Shown piece after piece: positions 6,355 through 56,698 of a stretch of 64,000 bases of DNA. The DNA comes from Natronolimnobius sp. AArcel1. Lineage in GTDB: Archaea; Halobacteriota; Halobacteria; Halobacteriales; Natrialbaceae. Within the stretch, counting starts at the first letter, position 1. Each line of letters begins with the position of its first letter. The notes under the pieces were generated by a model, which saw only the letters and a program-made list of their open reading frames with translations, was not told where the DNA came from and did not search any database. The stretch lies in the NCBI RefSeq assembly GCF_011043775.1, contig NZ_JAAKXY010000002.1, positions 310,001 to 374,000 on the forward strand. Reading direction: 5' to 3'. A program made the translations under genes and the position numbers.

Positions 6355-6945
6355 TCACTGGTACGGATCGAGCGACGCGCGGTCGGCGTCGTCGATCTGA
6401 CTCGCTGCCAGCAGTCGGTCAACAGCCGCGCCATCGGCGAGCGACTCGAGTTCTGTCCGCACGTCACAGGCGTGTTCGTAGTTCGGTGCAATCGCATCCG
6501 CGACAGCCTCGCCAGTCTCGTCGTCGAGTGAGCGAGCCAGACCGATGACCCGCTCGTAGCGCGTACACTCGAGCGCCTCGAGTTTCAGCATCGTTTCGAC
6601 GTAGTACAGCGGCCGCAACTCGTCGTTTAAGACGACGTTGTTGAACTTCTCTTTGTCCGCGATCAGGCCGTCCAGTTCGGGCACAGGCCCGGTATCCAGA
6701 CGGTGATCAAGGACGTCGAACGCCTCCTCGAGGTGTCTGCGGCGGTCGGCCGTTTGCTCTCGTCGCTGGTCAATCGCGTACTGTAACTGCTCGCGGCACT
6801 GAAGTTCGCGCACCGTATCCAGCGTGTCGATCGCAACATCGGCTGACAGCGTCTCGAGTGCGGTGTCAATGCCCTGTTCGAGCGCGTCGAGGCGCGCCAG
6901 TTCAGCCGCAAGCGTCTCGTGTGGCGTCATGTCTCTTGGAGTCAT
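6355..6945 (-). CDS. DUF892-like helical protein
   Basis: The protein has 196 residues from the ATG at 6945; a second ATG at 6930 is also possible. It is almost entirely helical and charged, with DKEKFNNVVLNDEL and the helix YYVETMLKLEALECTRYERV resembling the second half of YciE-like ferritin-fold proteins, but the metal ligands are less clear than in the neighbour at 5748-6254. The start lies 22 bp after the DUF5789-like gene, so co-transcription is likely. The ferritin-like assignment is by resemblance. Confidence 0.65.
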   Translation of the reverse strand: MTPRDMTPHETLAAELARLDALEQGIDTALETLSADVAIDTLDTVRELQCREQLQYAIDQRREQTADRRRHLEEAFDVLDHRLDTGPVPELDGLIADKEKFNNVVLNDELRPLYYVETMLKLEALECTRYERVIGLARSLDDETGEAVADAIAPNYEHACDVRTELESLADGAAVDRLLAASQIDDADRASLDPYQ

Positions 6946-6967
6946 TATCAGAACCTCTCGAGAAGTC

Positions 6968-7291
6968 TCAGAACGACTGTTGCATCCGGGTCGTGTCGGT
7001 GTCGTGTGGGCTGTCGCCGCGGTCGCTGTATCGCGGTCGTCCCACGGCATCGCGCCGGACACCGTTGAAGATCGCCAGCTCGAGGTCATCCCGGCTTTCG
7101 TAGGTTTCGTGGCCGGAGGTCTCGAGCACCGTCTGGAGTGGATCGGATTCGTGTGGATAGACGATTTCGACGTCTGCATACCGCTCGAGCACGTCCGCCG
7201 TCGTCATCGGGAACGTTGCGTCCTCGAATAACTGGGTGATTTCTCCGACGGCAAGCGAGTGTCGCGCATCGGCATTGTCGGTGTGATTCAT
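6968..7291 (-). CDS. DUF5789 family protein
   Basis: The protein has 107 residues from the ATG at 7291. It matches the haloarchaeal small-protein pattern that I know as DUF5789: a short conserved core with FPMTTADVLERYADVEI, then ETYESRDDLELAIFNGV and a closing VGRPRYSDRGD. Function is unknown; the core resembles small helical folds used in regulation. It is the first gene of the minus-strand run DUF5789, DUF892-like, YciE-like, GCS2-like. Confidence 0.8.
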   Translation of the reverse strand: MNHTDNADARHSLAVGEITQLFEDATFPMTTADVLERYADVEIVYPHESDPLQTVLETSGHETYESRDDLELAIFNGVRRDAVGRPRYSDRGDSPHDTDTTRMQQSF

Positions 7292-7458
7292 CGTCCCCCT
7301 CCTACTGGCATCCACGACATAGTAGTGGAGCCTGCAGATGACGACCGCCTGCCCGCGTGCAGTTATCCGCCCAATCACTCACTGTCAAAACACAGTTCGA
7401 CGCGGAAACAATCAGGCGAACACCTACCTATAGGTTAACTGCCACGCTAGCCTCATCA

Positions 7459-8244
7459 ATGACCCACATCGACCGACTCACCGTCTATCCCGTGAAGGGA
7501 CTCGACGGTATCGACTGCGAGCACACGTCGATACTCGAGGGTGGCACGCTCGAGTACGACAGAGAGTTCGCCCTGTTCGATGCGGACGGCGACGTTGTCA
7601 ACGGCAAGCGAACCGACCGAATTCACGACCTCGAGACTGGATTCGATCCTGAGACGACAACGCTTACTGTCGCACCTCCCGACGGCGACAGCCTCGCGTT
7701 CGACCTCGAGTCAGCGTCCGGCCGCGAACGCGCTGCCGACTGGTTCGGCGACTTCTTCGATCTCGAGGTCACGCTCGAGCGCGACCGTTCGCTCGGTTAT
7801 GTGGATCGCCGTGAGATGGGACCGTCGGTGATCAGTACGGCCACGCTCCGCGAAGTCGCCTCCTGGTTCGACGACGCGGACCTCACCGTCGACAGCGTTC
7901 GGCGACGGATGCGAGCGAATGTCGAAGTCGGCGGCGTCGAGCCGTTCTGGGAGGACCGGTTTGTCGGCGACGACGCGCCCGCGTTCGAGGTCGACGGCAT
8001 TTGTTTCGAGGGCGTCACACCCTGCGGGCGCTGTGTCGTCCCCCAACGCGACCCCGACACGGGCGAGACACTCGAGGGCTTCAGAGAGCGCTTTATCGAG
8101 CGCCGCGAGGCGACGTTCCCCGAATGGGCCGACGAGGCGGCGTTCGACCACTACTACACGCTGATGGTCATCATGCAGATTCCGGAGACAGACCGCGGTG
8201 ACGACCTCGCAGTCGGCGATTCGATCACGATTCCACCGGCGTAG
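7459..8244 (+). CDS. MOSC domain protein (mARC-like)
   Basis: The protein has 261 residues from the ATG at 7459. Residues 1-100 form the MOSC N-terminal beta-barrel (RLTVYPVKGLDG, LEYDREFALFD), and residues about 120-255 the MOSC domain with the conserved cysteine region TPCGRCVVPQRDPDTGE. MOSC proteins bind molybdenum cofactor through that cysteine; relatives such as mARC and YcbX reduce N-hydroxylated compounds, but the substrate here is unknown. It is divergent from the DUF5789 gene. No electron-transfer partner is adjacent. Confidence 0.9.
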   Translation: MTHIDRLTVYPVKGLDGIDCEHTSILEGGTLEYDREFALFDADGDVVNGKRTDRIHDLETGFDPETTTLTVAPPDGDSLAFDLESASGRERAADWFGDFFDLEVTLERDRSLGYVDRREMGPSVISTATLREVASWFDDADLTVDSVRRRMRANVEVGGVEPFWEDRFVGDDAPAFEVDGICFEGVTPCGRCVVPQRDPDTGETLEGFRERFIERREATFPEWADEAAFDHYYTLMVIMQIPETDRGDDLAVGDSITIPPA

Positions 8245-38651: not shown

Positions 38652-40763
<2,112 letters not shown>

Positions 40764-43406: not shown

Positions 43407-44273
43407 ATGGGAGAGGGACAATTCGGACTGGTCGATCTCGAGGAGGTCGACACGCCAGGCGACGAATGGGAAGAGATCGACGTTTCAGAAACCGAAGCGG
43501 ACAGGATCGCCCGCAAGCGCGACCGCAAGTTCGAGCAGTTCGAGGAGCGGATCAAAGACGCCGATCAGTTCAAAGTTGAACAATCGGTGTTCGACGACGC
43601 GACACTGGCGGCGCTGTATAAACTCGTCCAAGATGGCTACGTCGAGGCCTTCGGCGGGCCGCTCTCGACAGGCAAAGAGGCGAACGTCTACCACGCACAG
43701 GGCGACGACCGCGAGGTCGCCGTCAAAGTGTACCGGATCAACGCCTCGAACTTCCGTCAGATGCGCGACTATCTCGAGGGCGACCCACGATTCGAGGGTC
43801 TTGGCGGCAAAAAGAAAGACGTCGTCCTCGCCTGGACGAGAAAAGAACTAGCAAATCTCCGACGCGCTCAGAACGCAGGCGTCCGCGTTCCGGAGCCACT
43901 CGCCGCCGAGCGCAACGTCCTCGTCATGGAGTACATCGGCAACGAGGAGGGTCGTGCAAAGCGCCTCGGTGAGGTCCACATCGAGAATCCCGAAACTGCC
44001 TACGAGGTCATGCGCGAGTACATGCGCCGACTCTACTCCGCGGGCATCATCCACGGCGACCTGAGCGAGTACAACGTCGTCTTCGACGACGGCCAACTCG
44101 TCATCATCGACGTCGGCCAAGCCGTCACCGTCCACCACCCCAACAGCCGCGACTTCCTCGAGCGCGATTGTGAGAACGTCGCGAGTTTCTTCTCGCGGCA
44201 GGGCCTCGAGACCGATCCCGACGAACTGCTCGAGTTCGTCACGAGTCCGGAGCCTGATCCCTCTCGAGACTGA
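43407..44273 (+). CDS. rio1: Rio1-family atypical protein kinase
   Basis: The protein has 288 residues from the ATG at 43407 (three codons after a GTG). It has the RIO flexible-loop form of the P-loop STGKEANVYHA, catalytic Lys in VAVKVYRI, catalytic loop HGDLSEYN (Asp and Asn) and metal motif IIDVGQAV. Rio1 takes part in late 40S/30S maturation. The RNA ligase gene follows after 2 bp and the KH/Pno1-like gene, another small-subunit biogenesis factor, lies 4 kb away on the same strand. Confidence 0.95.
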   Translation: MGEGQFGLVDLEEVDTPGDEWEEIDVSETEADRIARKRDRKFEQFEERIKDADQFKVEQSVFDDATLAALYKLVQDGYVEAFGGPLSTGKEANVYHAQGDDREVAVKVYRINASNFRQMRDYLEGDPRFEGLGGKKKDVVLAWTRKELANLRRAQNAGVRVPEPLAAERNVLVMEYIGNEEGRAKRLGEVHIENPETAYEVMREYMRRLYSAGIIHGDLSEYNVVFDDGQLVIIDVGQAVTVHHPNSRDFLERDCENVASFFSRQGLETDPDELLEFVTSPEPDPSRD

Positions 44274-44275
44274 CG

Positions 44276-45127
44276 ATGAAGGAGTATCCGACCATTCCAT
44301 CGGTCGAGGCCGCTCCAGACGGGCTCGTCGACGACGGACACCTGTGGCTGCTCGAGAAGATCGACGGCGTACACCTTCGATTTCAACTCCAGCAGTCAGG
44401 GCTTATCCGGTTCGGTGATCGACACAGTGTCTACGACGATGCCGACGATGTGCCCGATCCCTCCCAGCACGCCGTTCGATACGTCCGGGAACACCTCGAC
44501 CGCGAGGCGCTCCGGAACGCAGTCGACGACGTCGAGGACGTCGTCTTCTTTGGCGAGGTGACCAGCTACCAGACGATCGATTACGAGTGGGATCGTATCC
44601 CGTCGTTTCTCGGGTTCGACATCTGGTCGGCCGACACGGAAACATTCCGCCCGCCGGACGCAGTGCATGCGATTTTCGACGGGATTGGACTCGAGTCGGT
44701 GACCGTCTTCGAACGGGAACGGCGCGCACGGGATTTCGACCCTGAGTCGTACACGATCCCGCAGTCGGAGTGGAACGATGGACCAGCCGAAGGCGTCGTG
44801 ATCCGGGACAAACGAGGCCAGCGTGCGAAACTTCTTCATCCCGATGCCGGAGACGCTGACACACCGACGCCAGTCGATGCACCCGCTGAGAAGTTGGCGG
44901 CGCAGTACGCGACCCGGGAACGACTCGAGCGCCTTGCAACGCAACTCGAGGACAACGGTCGACCAGTGACGTTTGAGACGCACTACGAGCGCGTTCTCGA
45001 GGACATCCTTCGGGAGGCTCATGGACGGCTGTCCCACGGCGAGAGCACCCTCGAGATGAGCGAGTTTCGCGCCGAGGTCGGCGCACTCACGCGAGCGTTT
45101 CTCGACGACCGAACAGCCGGCTCCTAA
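44276..45127 (+). CDS. RNA ligase (nucleotidyltransferase superfamily)
   Basis: The protein has 283 residues. The adenylation Lys is in LEKIDGVHLRF (motif I, KxDG), with FFGEVTSYQ (motif III region), AEGVVIRDKRG (motif IV) and AKLLH (motif V). This matches Rnl2/DraRnl-like RNA ligases, which join RNA ends with ATP; substrate in haloarchaea is unknown. The gene starts 2 bp after rio1's stop (TGACGATG), so they are probably co-transcribed. The C-terminal 80 residues are helical and of uncertain role. Confidence 0.85.
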   Translation: MKEYPTIPSVEAAPDGLVDDGHLWLLEKIDGVHLRFQLQQSGLIRFGDRHSVYDDADDVPDPSQHAVRYVREHLDREALRNAVDDVEDVVFFGEVTSYQTIDYEWDRIPSFLGFDIWSADTETFRPPDAVHAIFDGIGLESVTVFERERRARDFDPESYTIPQSEWNDGPAEGVVIRDKRGQRAKLLHPDAGDADTPTPVDAPAEKLAAQYATRERLERLATQLEDNGRPVTFETHYERVLEDILREAHGRLSHGESTLEMSEFRAEVGALTRAFLDDRTAGS

Positions 45128-45189
45128 CAGCGCTCGAGCAGGGGCAAAACACTCTTTATTGGTCCGAACTGATACCGACTTGATGACGG

Positions 45190-45234
45190 CCGCTCTCGAG
45201 TGGCAGTGGCGCTGGCCCCCATCCTCGAGAGCGG
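45190..45234. promoter_or_regulatory. Inverted repeat upstream of trpS
   Basis: CCGCTCTCGAG at 45190-45200 and its reverse complement at 45224-45234 are separated by 23 nt and lie about 120 bp before the trpS ATG, between the RNA ligase gene and trpS. It could be a transcript hairpin or regulator site. No further support is seen. Confidence 0.3.
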
Positions 45235-45352
45235 ATAGTATCGTTGCGGCGGGCGACGCGGCCTAACCCGTCACCGCGGCGACGGCTGCTCCCTCCGTTC
45301 GTTTTCTGCCGTATTGTGCGCCAGCCACTGCAGCCCCAGTCACTCGAGACGA

Positions 45353-46588
45353 ATGTCTGAGAACCCACCCCACGACGACGAATCGAATTCGAACCAACAT
45401 GTCGATACCGCGAACGGAAACTCGAGCGACGATGACGACTTCATCGTCACGCCCTACTCCGTTTCCGGCGAGGTCGACTACGAGAAACTGCTCGAGCGCT
45501 TCGGTGCCGATCCCCTTACGGACAGCCAGATCGAGCGCTTTCCCGACCACCCAATGCTCCGTCGGCGGACGTTCTACGCCGGCCGAGACATAGATCGGTA
45601 TCTCGAGGCTTCTGAATCCGGCGAGTCACACGCACTCGTGACCGGCCGCGGTCCCTCGGGGCCGATGCACTTGGGCCACGTCCTGCCGCTATATCTCGCG
45701 AAGTGCTTCCAGCGAGAGACGGGTGCGACGGTCTACATCCCACTCTCGGACGACGAGAAGCTCCTCGCAAAGGAGCAGTCGTTCGACTCCATCGGCGAGC
45801 ACACGCGCGACAACCTCCGCGATATCCTCGCGGTCGGGTTCGACCCGGAGCGAACGCGAATCGTGGTCGACACTGCCGACGCAGATGTGATCTACCCGAT
45901 TGCGGTTCGCCTCGCGAAGCACCTCACGCCCGCAACTGTCGAAGCAGTCTACGGCGAGCAAGGCACTGTCGGCTTGCAGTTCTATCCTGCCGTGCAGGCA
46001 ACGCACCTCCTGCTCCCGCAGCTTGTGGCTGGCCGACAGCCGACGCTCGTTCCCATCGCCATCGATCAGGACCCCCACGTTCGCGTCTGTCGCGACGTGG
46101 CCGCCAAGGAGGCGCTGCCCGTCGACAAACCCGGCGCGTTGCTTGGACGCTTTCTCCCGAGTCTCGAGGGGCCGGGGAAGATGAGCGCCTCCGACGAGGC
46201 GGCGTCGATTGACCTGACTGACGATCCTGACACCGTTGCCGAGACGATCCGCACGCACGCCTACACGGGCGGACAGGCGTCGCTTGAGGCCCACCGCGAG
46301 CAGGGTGGCGACCCGAGCGTCGACGTGCCGTTCCAGTACCTGCGATTCTTCTTCGAGGCGGATGACGAGGAACTCGAGCGCATTGCAGAACAGTATCGCT
46401 CGGGCAACCTCCTGAGCGGCGAGTTGAAAGAGATTGCAATCGAGCGGATCACGGACTTTCTGGGGGCACATCAGCGCCGCCGGGCAGAACTGGGCGACCT
46501 CGAGGACGAACTCGAGCCCTATCGACTCACTGACGAGGAGTGCAGACAGGCACTCGAGCGTGCTGGCGTTCCGCCGTCGCCGTTCTGA
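45353..46588 (+). CDS. trpS: Tryptophanyl-tRNA synthetase (archaeal/eukaryal type)
   Basis: The protein has 411 residues from the ATG at 45353 (MSENPPHDD). The HIGH motif is GPSGPMHLGHVLP and the KMSKS motif is GKMSASDE, both class I; DDEKLLAKEQ and QDPHVRVCRD are typical of archaeal and eukaryal TrpRS. The N-terminal 30 residues are low-complexity acidic (haloarchaeal). It charges tRNA-Trp in the cytosol. Haloarchaea can carry a second TrpRS; no duplicate is seen here. Confidence 0.93.
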   Translation: MSENPPHDDESNSNQHVDTANGNSSDDDDFIVTPYSVSGEVDYEKLLERFGADPLTDSQIERFPDHPMLRRRTFYAGRDIDRYLEASESGESHALVTGRGPSGPMHLGHVLPLYLAKCFQRETGATVYIPLSDDEKLLAKEQSFDSIGEHTRDNLRDILAVGFDPERTRIVVDTADADVIYPIAVRLAKHLTPATVEAVYGEQGTVGLQFYPAVQATHLLLPQLVAGRQPTLVPIAIDQDPHVRVCRDVAAKEALPVDKPGALLGRFLPSLEGPGKMSASDEAASIDLTDDPDTVAETIRTHAYTGGQASLEAHREQGGDPSVDVPFQYLRFFFEADDEELERIAEQYRSGNLLSGELKEIAIERITDFLGAHQRRRAELGDLEDELEPYRLTDEECRQALERAGVPPSPF

Positions 46589-52669: not shown

Positions 52670-55600
52670 ATGGCGCAAGCGGGAAATACAGAACTCGTCG
52701 ACTCCTTCGAGCAGTTCTTCCGCAACTACTACGACAACGAGATCAAGCAGCTTGCGCAGCGATACCCCAACGAACAGCGGTCGCTCCACGTCGACTGGCA
52801 GGAACTCTATCGGTACGACCCGGATCTGGCCGATGACTTTCTGAACCAGCCAGAGCAACTCCAGCGCTACGCCGAAGAAGCGCTGCGACTGTACGACCTG
52901 CCAATCGACGTCAGCCTCGGACAGGCACACGTCCGCGTCCGAAACCTCCCCGACACGGAGTCACCCGAAATCCGGGAGATTCGCGCGCTGGACATGAACT
53001 CGCTCGTCGAAGTGCATGGCATCGTCCGGAAGGCAACTGACGTGCGCCCAAAAATCGAAGACGCCGCCTTCGAGTGCCAACTCTGTGGCACCCTCACTCG
53101 CGTCCCCCAATCCAGCGGGAACTTCCAGGAACCCCACGAGTGCCAGGGCTGTGAACGACAGGGCCCCTTCCAGGTCAACTTCGACCAATCCGAGTTCGTC
53201 GACTCCCAGAAACTGCGTATTCAGGAAAGCCCCGAAGGCCTGCGCGGCGGCGAAACCCCACAGGCCCTCGACGTCCACGTCGAAGACGACATCACAGGCG
53301 AAGTCACCCCCGGCGACCACGTCTCCGCCGCTGGTGTCCTCCGGCTCGAGCAACAGGGCAACGAACAGGACAAATCGCCCGTCTTCGACTTCTACATGGA
53401 AGGCATGTCCGTCGACATCGACGAAGAACAGTTCGAAGACATGGACATCACCGAGGAGGACAAACAGGAAATATACGAAATCTCCAATCAGGACGACGTC
53501 TACGAGCAGATGGTCGGCTCCATCGCACCATCGATCTACGGCTACGACCAAGAAAAACTCGCGATGATCCTCCAGTTGTTCTCGGGCGTTACAAAGCAGT
53601 TACCCGACGGCTCGAGGATTCGTGGGGACCTCCATATGCTTCTCATCGGTGATCCTGGTACCGGAAAGAGCCAGATGCTCGGCTATATCCAGAATATTGC
53701 ACCACGATCCGTCTATACGTCCGGGAAGGGGTCGTCCTCGGCGGGACTTACCGCTGCGGCCGTGCGGGACGACTTTGGTGACGGCCAGCAGTGGACGCTC
53801 GAGGCCGGCGCGCTCGTTCTTGCTGATCAAGGGATCGCAGCAGTTGACGAGCTAGATAAGATGCGGTGTGTCACGGGAGACACACTATTTCATACTGGGA
53901 GTGGGATTAAACCAATACGAGAGTTCGCCCACGAAGCAGTAGTTGATGGGTCAGTCGAAGAACTCGAAACTGGGCGGACAATTCGGGACATCGATATGGA
54001 TGTCTGGACGATGACCGAAGACGGACGCATCACCAAACGCGACGTATTGGCGGTGCATGAGTACGATGCGCCTGAGGAACTTCACGAAATCACACTAGAA
54101 AGTGGAGAACAACTGACTACAACCGCCGATCACCCATTCTTCGTTTTAGACGATGGAAAGCGGAAGGAACGACAGGCACAAGATCTGAACGACGATGACT
54201 GGATCTTCGTACCTAATACGATACCTACCGGGATTACGGACGGTGGAGCCAGTGTATTGCCTTCGAACGCAGGCGAAACAGACACAAACCAACTATCCCA
54301 CTCCCACGGTGCAATTTTAGGATATATTGCCGGAGATGGTAACATTTTCTATGACCGAACCGAAGGTGTCTACGGATTCCGCTTTACGAACAAGGAAACA
54401 GAGTTGCTACGTGACTTCGAAGATGCGTGCACAAGCGCGTTTGACACACAAGCCGTTCGCCATCCAAGCGAACAGCGAGATGATGGTGTCGAAACAGTAC
54501 GGGTCCATGGAAAACAATATGTTGATGAACTCCTTGAGTTGGGAGCGAATCTCGAGATCTATGATGGAAAACGACTCCCAGACGCAGTAACTAACTCATC
54601 ACGGGAGACAAAAGCTGCCTTTATTCGGGCGCTTTCAGATTCAGAAGGGACAGTCGATGACCGTGCCGTCAAAATATACTCTTCAAGTTACGAGTTGCTG
54701 CTCGGAACAAAAATGCTGTTGCTCGAGTTCGGAATTTCCAGTCAGATTCAAACTCGAACTCGAGATGAAGGACGTAATCTGTACATACTTGCGATTACAT
54801 CGAATCACTCACTCGATGCGTTCGAACGACACATCGGATTTACACTTGGTCGAAAGCAGCGCGCGTTAGAACACGCCTGCGAACGAACGACAGGAGATCG
54901 TACTATCATTGATGTACTCCCAGAATGTGGTGAACTCTTCGAACAAGCCCGCGGAGCTCTTCGTCTTCACCAGTCAGAATGTGGCCTTGAAAATGATTCG
55001 ACCTACTGTAACTTCGAAAATGGAGATGCGAACGCATCACTGCGACTCTCAAAAACGATACTCAACGAATTCAAAGAACGGAAAGCAAAAGCAGACGTCC
55101 ATTATGCTGAACTCAGCACGGAGACATCATGGGAACAACTTGCTGAACTTCGAGAGCGATACCACGTCTCTCAGCGAGAGTTAGCCACAGAAATGGCTGT
55201 CTCCCAGCAGCAACTCTCGAGTCGCTGGGGAACGGATTCTGATCTTCGAGAGCAGGTTCGACATCGGCTTCGTGAACTACTCGAAACACCAGCTTCAGTC
55301 GATCTTGACCCACTTCAAAAGCTAATTGAAGGCGACGTGAAGTGGCGACGGGTGGAAACCGTTCGACAGATCAATTCGCGAGAGCATACTGACACTAGGG
55401 TGCAGGTTCTCGAGCAACACCTCGCAGATACAATTGGCACGAAAACCGTTAATTCAGTCAGAGAGCAGGCACGATCACTGATTGAGAACGACAACCACAC
55501 CGAAACGTGGAACGAACTCCGAGAGCAACTTGAACAGTATGGAATCTCGTTCCAGCAGGTCGCTTCGGAGATGAATGTCGCAGGCTCGACCGTCTCGCGG

Positions 55601-56698
55601 TGGTTCTCTGGAGCTGTCGACATCGGGAACTTTGAGACTGTCCAATCCGTCTGTGAGGAACTGCTCGAAACAAAGCGACGACAAATTACGGATCTTCTCG
55701 AGAAAATTGAACGACGTGACCAACCGCGGGTGTATGACCTCACGGTCGAAGGCACTCATAATTTCATCGCGAACGGTATGGTCGTTCACAACTCCGAAGA
55801 TCGCAGTGCCATGCACGAAGCGCTCGAGCAACAGAAAATCTCGGTTTCGAAGGCAGGGATCAATGCCACGCTCAAATCGCGCTGTTCGCTGCTTGGGGCG
55901 GCAAACCCCAAATACGGCCGCTTCGACCACTACGAGCCGATTAGCGAGCAGATCGATCTCGAGCCAGCGCTTATCTCTCGTTTCGACCTGATCTTTACGG
56001 TGACAGACGACCCCGATGAGGAAAAAGACAAGAATCTGGCGGACCACATTCTGACAACGAACTACGCCGGTGAGTTGACCACCCAGCGCGAGCAGATGAC
56101 GAATCTCGAGGTCAGCGAGGCCGAAATCGAGGAGATGACCGAGCAGGTCGATCCGGTCATCGATGCTGAACTCCTCCGAAAGTACATTGCATTCTCGAAG
56201 CAGAACTGCCACCCGCGGATGACCGAGGAAGCCCGCGAAGCCATTCGAGACTTCTACGTTGATCTTCGTTCGAAGGGAACCGACGAAGATGCGGCGGTGC
56301 CGGTGACAGCCCGTAAACTCGAGGCGCTGGTTCGGTTGTCGGAAGCCAGCGCTCGGGTTCGTCTTTCGGATACAGTCGAGTATCACGATGCCGAACGGGT
56401 GATCGAGATCGTCCACTCCTGTCTCCAAGATATCGGTGTCGACCCCGAAACGGGCGAGTTCGACGCGGATATCGTCGAAGCGGGGACCTCAAAGTCACAG
56501 CGCGACCGGATCAAGAACCTGAAACAGCTGATTAGCGATATCGAAGAGGAGTACGACGAGGGCGCGCCAGTCGATATCGTCCTCGAGCGCGCAGAAGAGG
56601 TTGGGATGGACCACTCGAAAGCCGAGCACGAAATTGACAAGCTCAAACAGAAAGGAGAGGTCTACGAGCCGAGTACGGACAATTTGCGGACGACATAA
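52670..56698 (+). CDS. mcm: MCM replicative helicase precursor with intein
   Basis: The precursor has 1342 residues; removal of the 642-residue intein leaves a 700-residue MCM, the usual haloarchaeal size. The mature protein shows a zinc-binding N-terminal domain (CQLCG, CQGCER), Walker A GDPGTGKSQ near residue 326, Walker B IAAVDELDKM just before the splice site, the arginine finger region SRFDL, and a C-terminal winged helix. The MCM ring unwinds DNA at replication forks. The intein interrupts the AAA+ module between Walker B and sensor 1, residues 400-1041. Codons just upstream of the insertion differ in style from the first 300 codons. Confidence 0.98.
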   Translation: MAQAGNTELVDSFEQFFRNYYDNEIKQLAQRYPNEQRSLHVDWQELYRYDPDLADDFLNQPEQLQRYAEEALRLYDLPIDVSLGQAHVRVRNLPDTESPEIREIRALDMNSLVEVHGIVRKATDVRPKIEDAAFECQLCGTLTRVPQSSGNFQEPHECQGCERQGPFQVNFDQSEFVDSQKLRIQESPEGLRGGETPQALDVHVEDDITGEVTPGDHVSAAGVLRLEQQGNEQDKSPVFDFYMEGMSVDIDEEQFEDMDITEEDKQEIYEISNQDDVYEQMVGSIAPSIYGYDQEKLAMILQLFSGVTKQLPDGSRIRGDLHMLLIGDPGTGKSQMLGYIQNIAPRSVYTSGKGSSSAGLTAAAVRDDFGDGQQWTLEAGALVLADQGIAAVDELDKMRCVTGDTLFHTGSGIKPIREFAHEAVVDGSVEELETGRTIRDIDMDVWTMTEDGRITKRDVLAVHEYDAPEELHEITLESGEQLTTTADHPFFVLDDGKRKERQAQDLNDDDWIFVPNTIPTGITDGGASVLPSNAGETDTNQLSHSHGAILGYIAGDGNIFYDRTEGVYGFRFTNKETELLRDFEDACTSAFDTQAVRHPSEQRDDGVETVRVHGKQYVDELLELGANLEIYDGKRLPDAVTNSSRETKAAFIRALSDSEGTVDDRAVKIYSSSYELLLGTKMLLLEFGISSQIQTRTRDEGRNLYILAITSNHSLDAFERHIGFTLGRKQRALEHACERTTGDRTIIDVLPECGELFEQARGALRLHQSECGLENDSTYCNFENGDANASLRLSKTILNEFKERKAKADVHYAELSTETSWEQLAELRERYHVSQRELATEMAVSQQQLSSRWGTDSDLREQVRHRLRELLETPASVDLDPLQKLIEGDVKWRRVETVRQINSREHTDTRVQVLEQHLADTIGTKTVNSVREQARSLIENDNHTETWNELREQLEQYGISFQQVASEMNVAGSTVSRWFSGAVDIGNFETVQSVCEELLETKRRQITDLLEKIERRDQPRVYDLTVEGTHNFIANGMVVHNSEDRSAMHEALEQQKISVSKAGINATLKSRCSLLGAANPKYGRFDHYEPISEQIDLEPALISRFDLIFTVTDDPDEEKDKNLADHILTTNYAGELTTQREQMTNLEVSEAEIEEMTEQVDPVIDAELLRKYIAFSKQNCHPRMTEEAREAIRDFYVDLRSKGTDEDAAVPVTARKLEALVRLSEASARVRLSDTVEYHDAERVIEIVHSCLQDIGVDPETGEFDADIVEAGTSKSQRDRIKNLKQLISDIEEEYDEGAPVDIVLERAEEVGMDHSKAEHEIDKLKQKGEVYEPSTDNLRTT
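53867..55792 (+). mobile_element. Intein with LAGLIDADG homing endonuclease and HTH-like inserts
   Basis: The intein runs from Cys400 (CVTGDTLF, block A) to His1040-Asn1041 (VVHN), followed by Ser as the first C-extein residue. Block B is TADHPFF (His488). The endonuclease motifs are LGYIAGDGN (about 550-557) and FIRALSDSEGT (about 651-661). Between endonuclease and C-terminal splicing block are about 300 residues, including HTH-like segments (HVSQRELATEMAVSQQQLSS near 830 and ISFQQVASEMNVAGSTVSRW near 960). It should self-splice and may home into intein-less mcm alleles. Confidence 0.95.

Follow-up and report, generated by a model that had tools for sequence, protein, structure and literature searches.

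Directly behind rio1, the gene of the serine/threonine kinase Rio1, the window (the whole stretch of 64,000 nucleotides analysed here) carries a gene for an RNA ligase-like protein. Does this ligase serve Rio1-dependent maturation of the small ribosomal subunit, as its position might suggest, or is it an accessory enzyme that came to lie beside rio1?

The rio1–ligase locus

The rio1 gene (43407–44273, + strand) encodes 288 amino acids counted from its ATG and matches NF041310 Prot_Kin_Rio1_Halo, the NCBIfam equivalog for haloarchaeal Rio1, at 512.8 bits (cut-off 480). A 2-bp spacer (44274–44275, +), read TGA-CG-ATG from stop to start, separates it from the ATP-dependent RNA ligase-like protein of 283 amino acids (44276–45127, +), which is followed by trpS, the gene for tryptophan–tRNA ligase (45353–46588, +; NF008927, 571 bits). 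The placement of the ligase 2 bp behind rio1 in the sequence-only reading is therefore confirmed, and to judge from this spacing the two genes are probably read as one transcript. Two further frames in the window were noted by eye: 38652–40733 (−), a few kilobases upstream of the RNA ligase, resembles an NAD-dependent DNA ligase, which is probably a coincidence, and 52670–56698 (+) is a reading frame of 1,342 amino acids with an MCM helicase-like start, whose length suggests one or more inteins.

The ligase belongs to PF09414 (RNA_ligase), the family that holds T4 Rnl2, RNA-editing ligases and others, with an E value of 8e-18 and 65.6 bits against the curated cut-off of 27, and it also matches phrog_548 RNA ligase (2.7e-13). 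Motif I reads E27-K28-I-D30-G31, its core K28-I-D30-G31 with the AMP-accepting lysine lying at 44357–44368; R49 stands in motif Ia, E94 (within FFGE; 44555–44557) in motif III, F114-D115 in motif IIIa, E172-G173 (E172 at 44789–44791) in motif IV and K185 (44828–44830) in motif V, all on the + strand. The motif names are those that we take to apply to these residues, and F114 and R49 presumably have the ATP-binding roles of their counterparts in T4 Rnl2. The four residues by which the covalent nucleotidyltransferase (ligase) superfamily is recognized, the lysine of motif I, the glutamates of motifs III and IV and the lysine of motif V, are all present, as the first reading of the motifs had it. 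The nucleotidyltransferase part spans roughly residues 1–190 and a helical C-terminal part roughly residues 204–282. Residue roles rest on the motif alignment, because the one structural model is of low quality (mean pLDDT 46, with the helices at 204–282 as its confident part) and the best PDB sequence-profile match, 3qwu, reaches an E value of only 0.014, a Naegleria RNA ligase and Pab1020 coming next with 0.14; further PDB sequence searches with A1, A2 or single proteins as the query returned nothing relevant, giving no matches or chance matches.

The gene is real rather than a chance frame, given one significant copy in the host genome (a second match, with an E value of 0.23, is noise) and a dN/dS of 0.14 against its closest relative. 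Since the protein keeps all of the catalytic residues, it is probably an active enzyme. As a stand-alone PF09414 ligase, it would adenylate itself on K28 using ATP, pass the AMP to an RNA 5′-phosphate and then seal that end to a 3′-OH. Unlike the PF09414 proteins named above, it falls in a short haloarchaeal subfamily. The same genome also encodes one RtcB, likewise an RNA ligase but of a different family and in a separate gene; RtcB joins 2′,3′-cyclic-phosphate or 3′-phosphate ends to 5′-OH ends.

Linkage to rio1 among relatives

A DNA query spanning rio1 and the ligase, run on 125 genomes of the host's taxonomic family, gave a single match across both genes in eight of them (G000, G122, G112, G232, G609, G578, G580 and G623), distributed over four genera as 2 of 2 genomes in g1, 3 of 5 in g9, 2 of 3 in g178 and 1 of 10 in g13. 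Wherever the junction of a linked genome was read, which covers six including that of the window (all but G609 and G623), it has the same sequence, TGA-CG-ATG, and the ligases of these six form one clade in a tree of 23 ligases, with support of 100/99. Linkage therefore needs one change, and among the six genomes examined it goes back to one insertion event between rio1 and trpS. The idea that the pair would be conserved in haloarchaea thus holds in so far as linkage extends outside this strain, and fails in so far as it is limited to a few genera and one event.

A wider sample gives the same impression. In genomes of the order for which both positions were listed, ligase and rio1 stand side by side in 4 of 65, and of 130 ligase-family loci searched, four have rio1 within the flank that was retrieved; six of the loci have less than 2.5 kb on one side and one (L032) is a 3.7-kb contig. 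A rio1-associated ribosome biogenesis operon with the pair conserved across haloarchaea was rejected on these counts (8/125 genomes and 4/130 loci). At one locus (L144), the strand opposite the ligase carries, some 3 kb away, a kinase that looks Rio2-like by eye.

The position behind rio1 is itself variable. In relatives lacking the ligase, trpS follows rio1 directly (G140 and G229), or the place is taken by a histidine kinase (G220), a 5′-nucleotidase (G189 and G217) or, in G145, a group of four genes, among them those for a cupredoxin and a molybdopterin oxidoreductase. Window positions 44274–45352 and the equivalent rio1–trpS interval of these relatives thus make up a variable slot within one taxonomic family.

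These data bear on the explanation with which we began, a functional rio1–ligase operon in which sealing or repair of rRNA by the ligase would accompany or follow Rio1-dependent maturation of the small subunit. The 2-bp spacing conserved in all six linked genomes read, the occurrence of linkage in four genera and the purifying selection on linked copies (dN/dS of 0.14–0.20 in pairs among the window copy, L033, L034 and L035) are what such an operon would predict. Elsewhere, four genomes have the ligase upstream of rps15 and three have it next to a β-CASP RNase, and in Thermococcus kodakarensis deletion of a different ligase, Rnl3, leaves rRNA fragments and affects C/D box RNA circles (PMC9014305). 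However, rio1 is near-universal in the order (285 of 293 genomes), whereas the ligase is found in 153 of the same 293, the searched flank of 126 of 130 ligase loci has no rio1, the linkage has a single origin and unrelated genes fill the slot elsewhere. Moreover, three of the six linked ligases have lost a catalytic glutamate (E172A in G112; E94A in G578 and G580), so ligation may be dispensable in the linked clade too. We consider this operon very unlikely. The proposal that tied the ligase to Rio1 and small-subunit maturation draws no support from the linkage, given the patchy ligase, the near-universal rio1, the variable slot and the one event. More probably, the ligase is an accessory gene that was inserted once between rio1 and trpS, in the ancestor of a few related genera, and acts outside Rio1-dependent ribosome maturation.

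Distribution, neighbours and relatives of the ligase family

The 153 genomes with the ligase, from a sample spread evenly over the order, represent 56 of 87 genera. In a sample of the phylum, 32 of 344 genomes match the family, 31 of them within the order. The match outside the order (G558; L202, at about 6864–7613 on the minus strand), overlooked by the gene caller and absent from our trees, is an open frame with 25% identity that keeps all four catalytic residues; this distant relative could provide a root for the family. A scan of genome contigs with the single window protein added one relative only (L032). Gene calls and gene starts in all relatives come from a simple caller based on codon usage.

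No conserved operon partner emerged: the commonest neighbour cluster within four genes of the ligase occurs at just 7 of 95 loci with a called ligase. Local associations do recur. The four genomes with the ligase upstream of rps15 belong to one genus, three other genomes of which carry the gene at other places. In another genus, a β-CASP RNase with an RMMBL domain adjoins or overlaps the ligase in three genomes and lies two genes away in a fourth (G171), the four ligases (L083, L099, L157 and L163) reading KEAK or KEKK at the catalytic positions K28, E94, E172 and K185 (motifs I, III, IV and V), in the four-letter signature used throughout. On a plasmid of Haloterrigena turkmenica the ligase adjoins orc1/cdc6, and that orc1/cdc6 gene cluster recurs near the ligase at four loci. 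Twelve plasmid records carry the ligase, and TnpB or IS genes lie near it at several loci. Three genomes (L042:6866–7105, L040:6628–6870 and L045:6886–7125) have a gene for a protein of 79–80 amino acids just ahead of the ligase, at a distance of 1–12 bp; the protein is a possible small partner, and the one copy scanned has no Pfam match. PADLOC models gave no match for the window protein, and a link to defence was set aside; among 52 family members one matched, a type I specificity subunit model with an E value of 0.0082.

The characterized archaeal RNA ligase, Rnl3 (Pab1020/MthRnl type, TIGR01209), resembles the window protein as an ATP-dependent nucleotidyltransferase that is also patchy in the order (85 of 293 genomes). 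Unlike Rnl3, however, the window protein has no NCBIfam match and so falls outside TIGR01209, and the host genome has no TIGR01209 match at all. Pairing of the two was rejected: both occur in 35 genomes, the short family alone in 118, Rnl3 alone in 50 and neither in 90, an odds ratio of 0.53 with a Fisher p of 0.02 towards fewer joint occurrences, uncorrected for phylogeny. The co-occurrence of HARP with Rnl3 described in PMC12153264 concerns Rnl3 and not the window family.

A longer haloarchaeal ligase subfamily of about 358 amino acids, which 27 of the order's 293 sampled genomes carry, is homologous and joins the same tree as an outgroup, and one member that was scanned lies just below the PF09414 cut-off (25.7 against 27 bits). 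At three loci a longer homologue of 357–359 amino acids stands directly behind or near the short ligase (L040:6875–8814, L045:7138–9084 and L049). In the phage collection, the sole ligase match is to Halogranum tailed virus 1 (two records), with 26% identity over 81% of the query. The protein, gp217, has two relatives in viral contigs and, like one of them (L200), shows all four catalytic residues of the window ligase; it differs in its length of 320 amino acids, in its motif V surroundings and in being viral. A viral origin was rejected, as the evidence comprises this one phage-collection ligase at 26% identity and one distant viral piece (L198, a partial row reading KD and two gaps), with no close copy in viral contigs; the viral connection is at most an old relation.

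Loss of catalytic residues under continued selection

Alignment of the family reveals widespread loss of the residues on which ligation depends. The alignment comprises 131 family rows, drawn from 129 of the 153 matching sample genomes and supplemented by L032 and by L205, a further copy in G158. The set of four catalytic residues is complete in 28 rows, missing altogether in 66 and mixed in the other 37. K28 is kept in 47 rows and lost in 84, and in the latter E172 is never retained (0/84), E94 and K185 in 9 rows each, F114 in 26% and R49 in 38%. Eight further loci overlooked by the gene caller (L050, L114, L115, L118, L125, L141, L185 and L192), which stand outside the 131 rows and the trees, are all open frames, one reading KEEK and seven lacking all four residues. 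PF09414 is detected at an E value of 1e-3 or better in 25 of 52 aligned members, several members lacking the catalytic residues falling below its cut-off.

The copies of Haloferax gibbonsii (YVAL) and Natronomonas pharaonis (LMAT), both labelled hypothetical, have none of the four residues, that of H. turkmenica reads KEEK, and a plasmid copy from Halomicrococcus gelatinilyticus labelled RNA ligase seems to correspond to L087, which reads SVAA; public labels of such proteins are ‘RNA ligase family protein’ or ‘hypothetical protein’. The rps15-adjoining copies, from four species of one genus, read KEEK, KEEM, KVAM and LAKK. This set may not be strictly one lineage, since the tree places two ligases from elsewhere (L074 and L032) among its rows and three congeners carry the gene at other positions. 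A search of open-licence papers for haloarchaeal or catalysis-less RNA ligases found no paper on this family.

The loss also seems to have occurred repeatedly. On a tree of 120 rows, the state of K28 changes 11 times, at least six of these changes being forced by starred branches. This tree was built without the four catalytic columns, left out nine long-branch rows as well as any row that shared its signature and more than 80% identity with one already included, and has a bootstrap that had not settled. State-change counts cannot separate loss from gain, and the direction of change therefore rests on the outgroup: in another tree of the family, which left out fragments of fewer than 200 amino acids, nine outgroup rows (viral, the long subfamily and L193, which falls with the outgroup and is counted there) keep all four residues, the partial viral row L198 reading KD and two gaps.

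Three lines of evidence indicate that the proteins without catalytic residues are nevertheless retained by selection.

First, the frame is full-length in most of the K28-less copies, and G21, H22, E148 and P162 are kept in 84 of 84.

Second, the 104 other columns that are conserved among K28-keeping rows are retained in the K28-less rows at a median of 80%. The residues kept include a set specific to this family, H22, W24, E148, W166, K179 and R246, which is missing in the nine outgroup rows whose catalytic residues are intact.

Third, 37 close pairs in which both members lack K28 have dN/dS values of 0.18–0.51 (median 0.25), compared with 0.11–0.28 (median 0.20) for 19 KEEK pairs (NG86; pairs more than 72% identical and not independent of one another). 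The proteins without catalysis are thus still under selection, perhaps less tightly.

As controls, two ligase groups of the same order keep what the short family loses. The motif I lysine, motif IV glutamate and motif V lysine are present in 15 of 15 Rnl3 sequences examined (from 85 genomes with a match), and the catalytic residues of the long subfamily are invariant in 12 of 12 (from 27 genomes with a match), so that among the three families compared the decay is peculiar to the short one.

Could the pattern reflect neutral decay, in which a mobile ligase is repeatedly acquired and then degrades, the copies without catalysis being functionless pseudogenes in progress? The patchy presence, the 12 plasmid records, the nearby TnpB or IS genes and a few genomes with copies in pieces (L208 in G033, L189 in G278 and L182 in G172) all speak for mobility and decay, and the somewhat higher dN/dS without K28 leaves room for slow decay as a partial explanation. 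Yet most K28-less copies are full-length with four residues invariant, dN/dS is well below 1 in 37 of 37 pairs and the non-catalytic columns persist as described. As a full account of the family, we regard neutral decay as unlikely.

A different possibility is that proteins lacking K28 are unable to use ATP yet can still seal pre-adenylated RNA supplied by another enzyme, which would leave them with step 3 alone. The motif I lysine mutant of the Methanothermobacter thermautotrophicus ligase MthRnl keeps step 3 only, with pre-adenylated donors, whereas a double mutant in motifs I and V has lost every step (PMC3514331). Of the 84 K28-less members, 75 also lack the motif V lysine, so by analogy with the double mutant these should be inactive; all 84 lack the motif IV glutamate as well. 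Nor does the family accompany Rnl3 (35, 118, 50 and 90 genomes for both, family alone, Rnl3 alone and neither, as above). A few members might be step-3-only ligases by this analogy, but we give little credence to the idea as an explanation of the family.

What, then, would hold these proteins in place? That the catalytic residues are lost while the protein is kept suggests a second job that needs no catalysis. We find it reasonably probable that the window encodes an accessory ligase, active in this host and inserted beside rio1, from a family in which pseudo-enzymes have formed recurrently and a non-catalytic role has been retained. Most family members examined have lost the adenylation pocket, namely the lysine of motif I, the glutamates of motifs III and IV, the lysine of motif V and often the phenylalanine of motif IIIa and the arginine of motif Ia, while selection holds many other conserved residues. 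The conserved task of the family is most likely binding, whether to RNA ends, to RNA structures or to a partner; going by selection and loss, RNA ends or structures would be the likeliest targets. Ligation would be the ancestral activity, kept in some hosts including this one and dispensable in many. A stronger form of the proposal, to which we lend somewhat less than even confidence, is that the family, although built on the ligase fold, conserves a function other than ligation: its members would have discarded the pocket several times independently, in some cases at the same chromosomal position within one genus, kept their specific residues and bound RNA ends or structures, with the intact copies representing an ancestral dual-function state.

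For the host, these results correct the link to rio1: proximity in a few genera reflects one insertion and not a pathway. For the family, if the pattern of loss holds, the passage from enzyme to pseudo-enzyme could be followed as a natural series within individual genera. Haloarchaea include genetically tractable species, and the role of an RNA-ligase fold without ligation would then become testable.
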